Notes under the pieces: generated by a model
Databases searched by the model: none
Seen by the model: only the letters and a program-made list of their open reading frames with translations
Told to the model about the DNA's origin: nothing
Program-made: the position numbers and the translations under genes
NCBI RefSeq assembly: GCF_020085105.1
Contig: NC_058046.1
Location: 17,384,675 to 17,448,674, forward strand
Reading direction: 5' to 3'
Length of the DNA: 64,000 bases
DNA from: Siniperca chuatsi
Taxonomy: Eukaryota; Chordata; Actinopteri; Centrarchiformes; Sinipercidae
Shown here: positions 39,299 to 61,696 of the stretch, one piece after another
How positions within the stretch are numbered: position 1 is the stretch's first letter
How the letters are laid out: each line of letters begins with the position of its first letter

Positions 39299-39402
39299 CT
39301 TGCTTAATGAAAAGCTGTGCACAACAAACAGTGATCAGGGCGACATCTCTTGATTGTCAGCTTTAGCAAACATCAGGAGGTTTGGATCTGTCAGGGGACC
39401 CT
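39299..39402 (-). other. pip5k1b: Probable pip5k1b non-coding 5' exon with a short upstream ORF
   Basis: On the minus strand the sequence has acceptor ttctcctacag, 104 nt of exon, then donor AAG/gtaagttt, 113 bp upstream of the start-codon exon. Because the coding ATG sits at the very first base of its exon, a separate 5'-UTR exon is needed, and this fits. It contains an upstream ORF at 39373-39335: ATG, 12 codons, then TGA. No transcript evidence is available. Confidence 0.5.
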
Positions 39403-51150: not shown

Positions 51151-51594
51151 GCAGTGTGTATTTTCACCACAGGCTGACAGTGTACAACTGAAGAGTCACT
51201 CCTCCACTGACAGCAGCAAGAAGCCCTGTGTCCCTGCCCTGCCTCTTTGCATACAACCATGCCATTTAGTGCACCACTGGATACAAAAATGACAAGAGAC
51301 TCGAGCATGCCCTCTGCAGGCCACAGGAAACTTCAGTTTCTTCAGCAACAATAAAGAGATGTATTTAATTTCATTACCTAAAATTAGTATGGCAATAATA
51401 TCTCTGTTATCTCTCCCAGTTGTATTAGTAGTTTAGAAATCCTTGAAATTTTTATATTCACATCTTCATTTCTGGTTACATGATATGAGAGTTTTGGCAT
51501 CACTGTGATGATAACAAAGGTCTGTAGTAACTTGTGGTGGTGGAGGCTTGTACAACAATAAAATAAAAAGTAGCCTGTTTCATGCTTAACATGT

Positions 51595-53904
51595 TTATTT
51601 ACCAAACTCAGAACAAATCAAAGCAAAAACGGAAGTTCCATCGTCACATTGAGAAGGAGAGATGTCATCATTCAATCCAGGATGAACACGAGTATCTCTG
51701 GAGGTGTGAAAAGTCATCTCAGAATTAGTATATTTACATCTACATTTGCACATACTATGGGCTACATGCTGGCTATTTAATGTTCACTAACCCCTCAGTG
51801 GTTTCTCCAGGGCTTTGCATCTCACTTAGGGGTTCAATCACATCAGTCGCTGAAACAAAATCATATTAAACATGAGGACATGTTGGTAACATGATATCGC
51901 AATAGCAAACATATGAATAAAGAAACTTTGTGAATAACAATAATATATTTCCATTACCTTGTTGACTTTGCTCTTGGTCTCCTCTCTTTTTACAGAAATA
52001 CAAGCCTACTATTAGTAGTAGTAAAGTACCTGTGGAATCAAGAGATGGATATTTAAGATGATTGTATCAATACAAAATTAATGCAAGACATCATAAAATT
52101 TTGATCTCACCTGATTGTCAGCATATGAAAGACAAACATTTCAACCCTGAGCGAAAGCAAGAAGACAGAGGATGGCACAGAATAAAAACAAGTCGGATTA
52201 GCAGCAGAAAGCATTATTTTCTTGAATTTAACAAATAACATATCTTGGCAGACATGAAAGAATGTGAAAGAAAGATTTACCACTGGCTGCTGTCGACAGT
52301 TGCTTATCCAGAAGCAGAAGAAACATGGTGTAAGCAGACAAAGTATCAGATTTACTGGTGTTTAGAACTTACCAACTCCACCAACAATTAATCCATGTTT
52401 TGCGCGGTCCTTTACCATACCCTCTGTGGTGACTGGTGGTGATGTTATAGCTAGAGGAAAGAGGAAAAACTCCAGTCAATGGTCAATCAAAACAGTGAGC
52501 AGCATGATGTAAAGTGTGTATCTGCCAGAAAAGCTTACCACTGATAAAATCACAAATCTTGCTGTGGTCTATTTGAGAAAACAAGAGAAGTGTTAGAAAG
52601 TGTTATTAGACACAATAGCATCATAAAAAAAACATCAGAGAAGATATCGTAGAAAAGGTTTCAGTCGTAGTCATCTGGACACTGTTTTCAGAATCAAGAC
52701 GTTTCGGCTCCTGTTGTGAAAAAAAAAAAATGGGACGGGAACTACTTTCACAATTGAGAATGACTTCCGTGACTATTTATTTAGGAAAATGTGTTGGGTG
52801 TGAAATTCTGATTTATCGTAATTATGAACAGCTCAGTCAATCAACTTACTGTGCATATTAAACAAAAACATTTTAATGAGAATAAATAGAAATCTAGAAT
52901 CTAGTTTGTCATCATGGGTGTTATCGCTTTTTGTAACGAGTACACTGATTTAAAGTCAGCAAAAAGTGACAGCAGAGAGATTCAACAGCTAAAATGTGGA
53001 TGGTGAATATTGACAGTGTGTAGTGATGGAATTTCCCTCCAACATCAAAATTATTAACAAACAGCACCCTCAGCTGGAGTGAACTGCAGTGAACAAAAAC
53101 CTGGATAAGGAGTTTACATGACACAGTAACCCCATCTCAGTCAGAGTACACAAGTAGAATATTTCTGTTTTTCAAAACTAGCATAAGGGGTTAACCAGGT
53201 TTCTGAACCCAATATATGAAGTTTACACATAAAAAACTCCAAAAACCCCATCAGAACAGGGATACTAATGTGCATGTAAACACACTAAATCTGTGAAATC
53301 TGTTGATTTCTGGGCCATCAAATGAAAATGTAAGTTTTAAGAATGTTGTCAATGATTGCAAGAAAATCACAAAGTACAGTATATTAAAGGCTTTAGAAAG
53401 TAAAAGTATATACCTGTACATTTTTCAGTCTTAATATAACCGGATGTCCCTTCAAATTCACACTCATCTGCATTAGTGGAAACAAATGCCCGACCATCAT
53501 GCTGGCAGACAGTATTGGGGGATGGAGGGCCTGTGCAAGATGTGATGTGAGTGTGACGTGTGAAGAGAAGCTTGTCATTGCAATATACGCAAGTCACATT
53601 AGCAGCACACCCTGGAATCTTGCAGAAAAAAAGCTGCACAGAGCTGTTTCCACCTGTAAGATTAAACAGTATATCTATGAAATATGTCACATAAACTTTT
53701 TTTTTATCATGACAGTGGTGGTCAAGAGAAGACATACCTTGACTTGCTGCGACTGGAAAGCACTGAGCGAGCACAGGAGCACACAGCAGCAGAGAGATGG
53801 TCAGCCCTGTCAAGACAAAAATATAAGAATTAATTGAAGGCTCTCTGATGGTTGCCGCTGAACACAGTTTAAAGTTGGTAAATTGTCAGAAACCTACCAT
53901 TCAT
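51595..53904 (-). CDS. Unrecognised single-pass type I membrane protein, cysteine-rich, 218 residues
   Basis: Eight exons in transcript order: 53904-53898 (ATGAATG), 53806-53738, 53653-53414, 52568-52539, 52450-52373, 52029-51958, 51849-51792, 51697-51595. They give 657 nt with all GT-AG junctions and continuous frame. The protein starts MNGLTISLLLCAPVLAQC, a convincing signal peptide (about 1-23). The ectodomain (about 24-134) has nine cysteines at 36, 41, 47, 50, 65, 75, 90, 104 and 111, and N-glycosylation sites at NSS (28) and NVT (44). A Thr/Pro-rich stem (ITSPPVTTEG) leads to a membrane helix (GLIVGGVGTLLLLIVGLYF, about 135-153), then KKR and a 62-residue acidic tail ending CSEFGK. The exon layout resembles small fish immune-type receptors, but I recognise no family; the cysteine spacing fits neither an Ig fold nor a standard TNFR repeat. 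It lies head-to-tail with pip5k1b on the same strand. Confidence 0.72.
51958..52029 (-). CDS. Transmembrane exon of the unknown membrane protein
   Basis: 72 nt. The codon split with the upstream exon (G/GT) gives GVGTLLLLIVGLYFCKKRGD, i.e. most of the membrane helix, a cysteine and the basic stop-transfer signal, and then QEQSQQ. It is the piece that makes the gene model convincing, because the hydrophobic run appears only when the splice is made in this frame. Confidence 0.75.
53414..53653 (-). CDS. Cysteine-rich ectodomain exon of the unknown membrane protein
   Basis: 240 nt, acceptor cttacag, donor gtatat, phase 1 at both ends. It holds CKIPGCAANVTCVYC, SCTGPPSPNTVC and DECEFEGTSGYIKTEKC: eight of the nine extracellular cysteines in 80 residues. 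Because both ends have the same phase, it is a mobile module of the kind common in extracellular receptor domains. It is the longest exon of the gene and the best query for a homology search. Confidence 0.75.
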
Positions 53905-58500: not shown

Positions 58501-59835
58501 TAGGTAAGCCAGCATGAAGGTACTAAAAAAACATTGGTCATGTGTGTCATGTAAACAGTAATTTATTTATGGTCCGTAAATCAACCCCCATCGATTAAGC
58601 GCAGATTGTATCTATTATTATTATTATTATTATTTAATTTGTTGCTGTTGTTTTTAAATCTGTTGGGGCTGTTACTGAAGAATAAAACCTTCCGGATCAT
58701 CCACAATCGTGACCACTGATATGCAAACCATATTTAAATTAACTGAGATTGACATCGTAATTAAATAAAGTCAAAAAAGATAATGTGGAAAAATACCTTT
58801 TACTGTCCCGTCTAAAATTCGAATTAAGTTGTTTAATTATAGGACATTTTAATGGTTGAGTTTTCTTTCTTAGTCCTTCGCGTGATTATATGAGTCATTT
58901 CACTTGAAGGTAAATAATGACAAGTAATCGACAGTCACGAGCGTCTCGTTGTCAGAAGCTACCTGTAAGTGCATGCGGCTAGCAGGTAATGATCATCATT
59001 GCCATGGGTCTAACGCTATTAAAAAATATATATTTTATTATTATTAATTAAGTTCAATTTCCAGCAAAGCAATTCTAAGTTACAGTTTTTCTCCATTGGT
59101 TTGGCTCATTTTTTGAAACAGAAGTTACATTCTCAAAACTCTAAGATAATTTGGCAAAACAGTCTTACAGTTTAGCACAACGCTATAGCTCACTTGGAAA
59201 AGCTCATATCTCTACCAAAACTGTTCACTCATGGTTCAAAACTAAATTCCTTTTCCATATAAAGAGTCAGTGCCACAGAAATGGCAAAGATCCTTCTCAA
59301 TTGCTTTGGCTCATTTCTCAAAACAGACCGGACATTCTTAACAGTCTTGGTGCTTTTGTCAAAATAATGTGGATGGTTCGGCACAACACCATGGTTTACC
59401 TGCAAAAGCTCATACCTCTCCTAAAACATTTTACTCATGTGTCAAAACTAAATTTCCTTCTCATTTAAACAGTCAGTGCCCCCAAAAGGCTTCGTCCCTT
59501 TGGCACTGTGTAAGCACTGCAAGTCAAAATGTTTAGATGTTTTGTCACTATGGCACAATGGTTACTGTACTGTTTTTTTGTCTAGCTAACAGAATACAAT
59601 GGTGTAAATAAAACTGAAAAAAAGACATATGATTTTAGGGTAAGAGTAGCCTCCAAGGTTTGACATCACACATTGCATCCATACTGCCAAGGAAATTGTA
59701 ACCATTTTTATTCACACAAGAAAAAAGAAAAAAGTAAAAAGAAAATGTATACAGCATAATATACTGTAATATAAACACACAAACAAAAAACAATAAAAAT
59801 TATATGCAGCCTACAGTGCTGTAAAGAAAGGTTCT

Positions 59836-59925
59836 TTACTGGTCGCTGTCCTCACCCTCCTGGCCATCCACACGCTGCTGTCCGTCTGGCCACAGATTCT
59901 CATCCACATCACAGCGTATATTCTC
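59836..59925 (-). pseudogene. C-terminal fragment of the same transposase
   Basis: On the minus strand it reads RCDVDENLWPDGQQRVDGQE and then GEDSDQ, stop at 59838-59836. The 'C-DVDE-LWPD' ending is typical of the last residues of this fish Tc1-like transposase family. It follows the N-terminal fragment after about 110 bp, so roughly 200 residues of catalytic core have been lost. Confidence 0.65.
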
Positions 59926-60036
59926 CCTTCCATAGTTTATTTTCTCCAATGTTTTTCTAGTAATTTTTAGTATCATAATAGGAATAGGTAAATGTGTTTA
60001 AATAAATATATTTATTGGTCTATGCACAGTGTCCTG

Positions 60037-60382
60037 TCCTATACAACATATAATTTCATCATTGACTGACAACATACCAGTTTTCCCTGCGAAAGGTTTG
60101 GATGATGGAGGAGACTGTAGAGTGAGGCACATTAGGCTGCACTCGACGACCTGCCTCCGCCATTGTGAGGCCATGGTTGATGACATGGTCTACAATTGTG
60201 GCCCAAATTTCATCCGGGACAGCATGGTATCTTCATCCTCCGCTGCCTCTTCCCCCTATTCCACCACCACGCACCCTTACTCCTCCTCCTCCTCCTCTTC
60301 TCCTTCCTCTTCCTCTTCCTCTTCCTCGAGCAGGTAGCTGCCCTTGTTCATTTACTTGGCCAGGTGCCTCCATGTTCAGAAA
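60037..60382 (-). pseudogene. N-terminal fragment of the Tc1-like transposase
   Basis: Read on the minus strand. First comes a start-region segment NMEAPGQVNEQGQLPARGRG followed by a run of Arg/Gly (RGRGRRRGGGGG), then, in a shifted frame, DHVINHGLTMAEAGRRVQPN and HSTVSSIIQTFRRE. The second part is a helix-turn-helix DNA-binding domain of the IS630/Tc1 type (family knowledge). A frame change after the Gly-rich run and a stop beyond the domain leave it non-functional. Confidence 0.75.
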
Positions 60383-61034
60383 CTGTACTGGTCCTGCATG
60401 GTCAAGCTCTTTACATACATGTTTGGCAGCATTCACAGTCATGGACAGCACCTGTCAGGTAACTAAACATACTGTTTGATTGGTCATCTGAGATGTGTGA
60501 AACTCCTCCTTCATTAGTCAAGTTCTAGTTTCACCTGACTGTCAATTGCTGTAATAATTTATCAAATGTTCCAAGGATTCATATATTGTATTCATGGTAT
60601 TATGTTCTTGAGTAATTTTGACAATTGAACAAACTATTGTGCATGTGATGACTTATACAATGAAATGACGCTGACACGTTTTGGAGCAAACAATCATTAG
60701 ACTGAGAATCAACAATCAGTTTAGATCAACAAGATCTATTCACTTGGAAATTGTGCTAAATGTAGGCTACCTGTACTTAATCATTCGCAAAGATGTACTG
60801 AGACATTGAGACATGTACTTAGACATTTGCAATTTGTAAAATGAATGAAAAATTCAATTCTGTTGTGAACAATTGCCAAGTGGTTTAGAGGTTTGTCCAT
60901 ATAGTTTTGAGAATGTAATTTCTGTTTCAAGAAATGAGCCAAACCAATGGAGAAAAACTGTAAAACCTAAAACATAACAGTTCTATATGAATCATGGCAT
61001 GTGGCAATTTTAAGGCAACACCTGAGATCCCAGC

Positions 61035-61205: not shown

Positions 61206-61696
61206 ATATGAATGGTATTAATGGTGATAGCAAATGCTTTATGGAACCGTTTCATTCAAGTTCTGGCTTTACAGAGAATGGCCAAGGTACAGAATTAAAG
61301 AAACACTGTGATGGGTAAAGATGCAGATTATGTGTCGCAGACAGGAAATGTGGCAGAAGTGTTGGTGTTCCAGTAAGCTATAGAGAAAGCAGCTAGATGC
61401 TTTTCTTGGAAAGTTGAGAAAGTATTCACTTCCTGTTGTGTTCAAAGTCAACCATCAGAGAGCCTCTAATTTAGTTTGTATTTTTGTCTTGACAGAGCTG
61501 ATATTCACTTGGCAGGACACCTACAACCTCCTTGCAGACTGTGTGTGTGAGAGAGAGAGAGAAAGAAAGAGAGAGTAGGAGGCTGGTAATGATCATTTTA
61601 CTTTAATAAAACAATGTTACTTTACTTTTCACGTAGAACTGTTATGGCATGAAATGACACAATTTTAGTGATACCACTTGCCCTGGAAGGGACAGA

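Follow-up and report, generated by a model that had tools for sequence, protein, structure and literature searches.

A 64,000-nucleotide stretch of Siniperca chuatsi DNA (NCBI RefSeq assembly GCF_020085105.1, contig NC_058046.1, positions 17,384,675 to 17,448,674 of the forward strand), here called the window, probably harbors a real gene on its minus strand at 51595..53904, whose eight exons would encode a small, cysteine-rich type I membrane protein. The exon anatomy, the membrane topology of the translation and the above-chance status of the whole were established in silico, and the predicted protein is an orphan in Pfam and the PDB, with a head that was placed in no family. We consider it likely that this is a functional protein-coding gene for a small single-pass surface glycoprotein, most likely a receptor, counter-receptor or adhesion protein.

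Gene model and splice sites

Rebuilding the model from the window joined eight minus-strand exons into one in-frame open reading frame (ORF) of 218 amino acids plus a stop codon, so that the eight-exon structure of the original prediction was recovered, its coordinates rejoining in frame to exactly 218 residues. The 7-nt coding part of exon 1 (53898..53904) carries the start codon, with an A at -3, and ends in the donor ATG/gtaggt (top 1.24%); this and all following ranks place a site among all GT (7748) or AG (8567) dinucleotides of the window, using consensus splice-site frequencies. Exon 2 (53738..53806; acceptor top 0.46%, donor top 0.39%) encodes the signal peptide and the mature N-terminus with Cys18. 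Exon 3 (53414..53653; acceptor top 3.08%, donor top 4.32%), which runs from phase 1 to phase 1, encodes an 80-residue cysteine-rich core with 8 cysteines and both N-glycosylation sequons (Asn28 and Asn44). Exon 4 (52539..52568), 30 nt in length, contributes Cys111 and is bounded by a weak acceptor (top 13.79%) and a strong donor (top 0.67%). The Thr/Pro stem and the first part of the membrane helix are encoded by exon 5 (52373..52450; acceptor top 0.53%, donor top 0.81%), and the remaining helix, the KKR stop-transfer and the start of the tail by exon 6 (51958..52029; acceptor top 0.88%, donor top 2.23%). Exon 7 (51792..51849; acceptor top 5.99%) continues the tail up to the weak donor GGG/gttagt (top 4.70%). 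Exon 8 (51595..51697; acceptor top 2.25%), the last in the 218-residue model, closes with a stop codon at 51595-51597 or, alternatively, is 3′ untranslated region (UTR). An AATAAA polyadenylation signal (51594..51599, minus strand) overlaps this long-form stop.

All seven introns are GT-AG. Five of the seven donors rank within the top 2.3%, with those of exons 3 and 7 within the top 4.3% and 4.7%, and five of the seven acceptors rank within the top 3.1%, followed by exon 7 (top 6.0%) and exon 4 (top 13.8%). Exon lengths place introns 1 to 6 in phase 1, the usual intron phase of modular extracellular genes, and intron 7 in phase 2.

Predicted protein architecture

The rebuilt translation carries cysteines at positions 36, 41, 47, 50, 65, 75, 90, 104 and 111, exactly those of the original prediction, and further cysteines at 11, 18, 154, 202 and 213. 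The N-terminal signal segment displays a 19-residue hydropathy of 1.94 from residue 4, and a putative cut after residue 16 (VLA/QC) fits the -3/-1 rule of thumb by which the site was judged, as do six other places. If the signal is cut after Ala16, Cys18, which the nine positions of the original prediction leave out, also belongs to the mature protein, and the head would contain an even set of ten cysteines when exon 4 is included and nine when it is skipped. A 19-residue membrane helix spans residues 136-154 (mean Kyte-Doolittle 2.43) and is followed by KKR. Hydropathy and sequence agree with the signal peptide, helix and basic stop-transfer that had been proposed, and the signal segment with its acceptable cut site, the single helix and the basic stop-transfer together describe a type I membrane topology.

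In the long form, the tail (residues 155-218) has a net charge of -8, in line with the acidic character first described, and measures 64 residues rather than the 62 reported. Tyrosine is absent from it, as are ITIM and ITAM matches. Its main linear motif is a single PxExx(acidic) match of the TRAF6 type, PGETTE, which is located in exon 7 and may be due to chance; there are no TRAF2-type matches. Tryptophan does not occur among the 218 residues. Structure prediction with AlphaFold2 on exon 3 alone, as a single sequence, gave a mean pLDDT of 43.6, and no fold was obtained.

Comparison with chance and codon usage

The architecture was evaluated by a spliced scan comprising a start, a hydrophobic signal, an ectodomain, a helix of at least 19 residues, a basic stretch, a tail and a stop, with introns of 70-1200 nt. 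Across 2.7 kb around the gene, the scan scored 88.6 bits along a path consisting of the originally predicted exons minus exon 4 and using an upstream start. None of 150 dinucleotide shuffles, scanned on both strands, reached this value (best 27.1 bits, mean 7.2, sd 6.4). When the window was scanned in 92 tile-strand combinations, the tile containing the gene came first with 89.2 bits, followed by a tile in the CERT gene with 49.5 bits; the tile run started at the originally predicted ATG, the upstream ATG having fallen outside the tile. The gene architecture is thus above chance level. Replacing the cysteine-rich ectodomain with a generic one still yielded 78.3 bits for the region. Because the scan was built for this protein architecture, it tests the architecture and not coding status in general.

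Codon usage of the whole model was neutral (-3.6 bits on a human table), and the ORF of exons 2 and 3 ranked 245th among 1292 stop-free segments of at least 30 codons. Among four ORFs of PIP5K and UNC45, three scored +32 to +40.5 and one scored +5.5. The neutral value either counts against the gene or reflects its AT-richness (GC3 0.35). A custom general gene finder, whose chain took exons 2 and 5, joined exons in excess, and its output was not used as evidence.

Searches for related proteins

Pfam-A returned zero matches at E up to 10 for the full model (query with one extra residue), the ectodomain and the mature short form, and zero at E up to 1 for exon 3 alone. In the PDB, exon 3 alone matched nothing, and the full model (again with one extra residue) matched just a CD4 helix at E 1.8, a chance match. 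The cysteine pattern, which the original prediction could not place in any receptor family, is likewise without a family in Pfam and the PDB, as a weak null result: of the human yardstick queries, CD27, BCMA, CD59 and CD164 each matched their own Pfam family, and GITR, a true TNF receptor, matched nothing, so that an absent Pfam match does not exclude a known family.

A tblastn search of the model against the window recovered its own exons, with the best match elsewhere at E 0.86. Searching with a peptide pattern, we obtained 7 matching stretches in viral contigs and 122 matches in bacterial and archaeal genome contigs, none of which was confirmed as a relative. Among the titles and abstract starts listed from the literature (pip5k1b, unc45, col4a3bp, teleost synteny/tnfrsf and orphan cysteine-rich), none pointed to this gene, and the retrieved passages of PMC7657398 and PMC3625193 concern other matters.

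Individual cysteine-rich families were also considered. Ly6/uPAR was rejected: 842 of 1000 cysteine-fixed shuffles did as well as the protein on its profile, and the CC-x4/5-CN ending is absent. Kazal was likewise rejected: the pattern PS00282 (C-x7-C-x6-Y-x3-C-x2/3-C) was unmatched, and 524 of 1000 cysteine-fixed shuffles scored as high. Immunoglobulin and sushi domains were set aside on the absence of a core tryptophan and of any Pfam match, and EGF and LDL-receptor class A domains on patterns and sequences. The C-x4-C-x5-C-x2-C spacing of the head appears similar to that in ZP-C, the C-terminal half of the zona pellucida module, for which Pfam gave no match. Since a TNF-receptor likeness was lost on retest (see below) and the Ly6 and Kazal profiles performed no better than shuffles, the protein was filed under no family.

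The gene may well be an ordinary one that is already annotated, be it as "uncharacterized" or with the name of a known receptor, a reading that we also consider likely and that overlaps with our preferred explanation. A gene of such quality has usually been predicted in annotated vertebrate genomes. The family searches covered Pfam and the PDB, and the GITR query, unmatched at E up to 10, indicates that Pfam can miss known families. The zero Pfam matches and the single chance match in the PDB speak against a name already given.

Possible alternative transcript forms

A second in-frame ATG lies upstream of exon 1 (about 54018) and was used by the scan path around the gene; translation from it would place 41 residues ahead of the hydrophobic segment. 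Exon 4, which the scan skipped in both the 2.7-kb run and the tile run, may be an in-frame cassette. Outside the main model, a 36-nt cassette candidate (52111..52146, minus strand) is located inside the membrane-helix intron and combines an in-frame TGA with strong splice sites (acceptor 5.9, donor 7.1), its donor exceeding every donor of the model. Acceptor-donor pairs this strong and 20-200 nt apart occur 3 times in the window versus about 0.6 expected by chance, an expectation obtained by arithmetic from the window's site counts. Another of the three pairs, 39299-39402 (minus strand), is possibly, at a guess, a PIP5K 5′ exon. We put forward a splicing switch through the 36-nt cassette as a hypothesis only.

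The last exon is uncertain. If exon 7 is read past its weak donor to the stop at 51773-51775, an alternative terminal coding exon results (51773..51849, minus strand), giving a 190-residue protein with a shorter tail that ends in ...TTEGLVNIK, and the 103-nt last exon would thereby become 3′ UTR. Splicing of the last intron is favored by its fair acceptor and, 31 nt upstream of this, a branch-like CTAAT motif, and the short form by the AATAAA that overlaps the long-form stop and leaves almost zero 3′ UTR.

Two further observations concern the 5′ part of the gene. Intron 2 (53654-53737) is 84 nt long, a multiple of three, and fully open, and its retention would insert 28 extra in-frame residues between the signal peptide and the head. 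In addition, a 66-nt block (53801-53866) comprising the end of intron 1, the acceptor and the first bases of exon 2 recurs at 61437-61501 on the other strand with 85% identity, and a looser alignment of this repeat, with 67% identity over 173 columns, covers exon 1. The block is either a dispersed repeat supplying the acceptor or the relic of a second copy of the 5′ end, of which a fragment has survived.

A functionless gene, either decaying or confined to a lineage (a recent pseudogene), would be in keeping with the neutral codon usage, the weak acceptor of exon 4, the strong-sited 36-nt segment with its in-frame stop and the repetition of the block at the end of intron 1 elsewhere in the window. 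However, 218 codons run over eight exons without frameshift or stop and the splice sites are mostly good, and we regard loss of function as fairly unlikely.

Unlikely readings: TNF-receptor membership and chance assembly

Also quite improbable, in our judgment, is a divergent member of the TNF-receptor superfamily, in which residues 41-75 would correspond to the latter half of one cysteine-rich repeat, with TRAFs recruited by the tail. A relaxed C2..C6 spacing, drawn up after the likeness was noticed, fits residues 41-75, and a profile of 10 human receptors gave the ectodomain 5.5 bits, a score that 14 of 300 cysteine-fixed shuffles and 2 of 300 free ones attained. By contrast, a profile of 8 receptors gave just 1.4 bits, which 258 of 1000 cysteine-fixed shuffles and 128 of 1000 free ones attained, when the held-out true members 4-1BB, CD27 and GITR scored 44.1, 56.9 and 22.2 and the unrelated CD164 scored 1.2. 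A single-repeat profile yielded 1.2 bits, a value reached by 29 of 300 cysteine-fixed and 27 of 300 free shuffles. Held-out BCMA scored just 3.8 in the 8-receptor profile, so that a small, atypical member could escape such a test. The C-x2-C-x2-C core is absent, PROSITE pattern PS00652 and Pfam TNFR_c6 were unmatched, and the tail yielded no Pfam death domain. The PxExx(acidic) motif would suit TRAF recruitment, and the score of the tail against the human HVEM tail, the best of eight tails tried, was reached by 9 of 500 shuffles; the scores against the other seven receptor tails, however, were reached by 88 to 481 of 500. The HVEM resemblance is slight and not enough to count.

That the exons form a chance chain picked by eye is very improbable: loose splice thresholds allow many chains, the original prediction chose freely among them and codon usage is unsupportive, but the real score lies 61 bits above the best of 150 shuffles, and the best tile away from the gene, among the 92 tile-strand combinations, is 40 bits lower.

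Genomic neighborhood

The minus strand carries, in order, unc45 (upstream), the orphan gene and PIP5K (downstream). Exons of a type I PIP5K lie at 25-32 kb on the minus strand, and UNC45 C-terminal sequence at 63.0-63.3 kb on the same strand ends the gap upstream of the gene. For the flanks, the original prediction was partly right: the neighbor that it called pip5k1b is a type I PIP5K, putatively the 1B paralogue, and lies on the same strand, the gap holds one inverted-repeat element, and UNC45 at the end of the gap had been left unnamed. CERT exons are located on the plus strand within 12.2-14.9 kb (139 residues matching solved CERT at E 2.1e-83); further exons from about 6.8 kb, suggested by the gene-finder chain, may belong to CERT as well. 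The flanking UNC45, PIP5K and CERT genes fit an animal genome.

The element in the gap (59080-60963) has 64-nt terminal inverted repeats that are 95% complementary and 1756 nt apart. It holds a weak helix-turn-helix transposase-like ORF (60062-60232, minus strand), with HTH_23 at E 0.013 and HTH_SB at E 0.02, both short of the Pfam cut-offs. A tRNA search with ARAGORN and an Rfam search at gathering thresholds found none in the whole window.

Proposed mode of action

In summary, our preferred explanation is a functional gene for a single-pass surface glycoprotein. It draws on the exact recovery of the model, the scan scores, phase 1 in six of seven introns and mostly good splice sites, together with the helix, the basic stop, the sequons, the AATAAA at the 3′ end and the even number of cysteines. 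Points against it are the neutral codon usage, the architecture-specific nature of the scan, the weak sites at exon 4 and the last intron, the strong-sited, stop-bearing 36-nt segment in the helix intron and the lack of a fold from AlphaFold2.

From the sequence we infer the following course. Once the gene is expressed, the signal peptide (residues 1-16) would be cleaved, delivering a head of roughly 95 residues that is presumably glycosylated at its sequons and held by up to five disulfides among ten cysteines (18, 36, 41, 47, 50, 65, 75, 90, 104 and 111). This head would sit on a short Thr/Pro stem, with the helix at 136-154 and the KKR stop expected to fix the type I topology, and would be followed by an acidic tail, 64 residues long if the last exon is coding and 36 if it is not. 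The head may bind either a protein ligand or a partner that another cell displays, whereupon the tail may recruit cytosolic adaptors and signal.

A bolder version, which we hold to be distinctly unlikely, makes the gene the founder of a receptor family that is restricted to a lineage and has a ten-cysteine head of new fold, the surface level of the receptor being set by splicing of the 36-nt cassette. If the cassette reading is true, a stop in mid-helix would switch the receptor off or release an anchorless head. Family searches miss many small, quickly changing vertebrate surface proteins, and a clean exon model with an unassigned disulfide-rich head is something that transcripts and orthologues can be checked against. 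Should the head represent a new fold or an unrecognized receptor branch, the biology of immunity or adhesion would gain from it.

Comparison with known systems

Three groups of proteins invite comparison with the preferred reading. Ly6/uPAR three-finger proteins also have ten cysteines within some 80-90 residues, whereas the predicted protein lacks the CC....CN ending and has a membrane helix and tail instead of a GPI anchor. CD164-like sialomucins are likewise small type I glycoproteins in which cysteines cluster and stretches are rich in Thr/Pro, but the cysteine spacing here is different and the acidic tail is longer; human CD164 matches its own Pfam family at 1.6e-62, whereas the protein of this gene matches none. 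Compared with the short-tailed members of the TNF-receptor superfamily (HVEM, BCMA and GITR), the predicted protein differs in having no C-x2-C-x2-C core, Pfam match or profile support on retest, yet it shares with them a small type I form, a disulfide-rich head, a short stem and, in a tail where Pfam finds no death domain, a TRAF-type motif match that may be due to chance.
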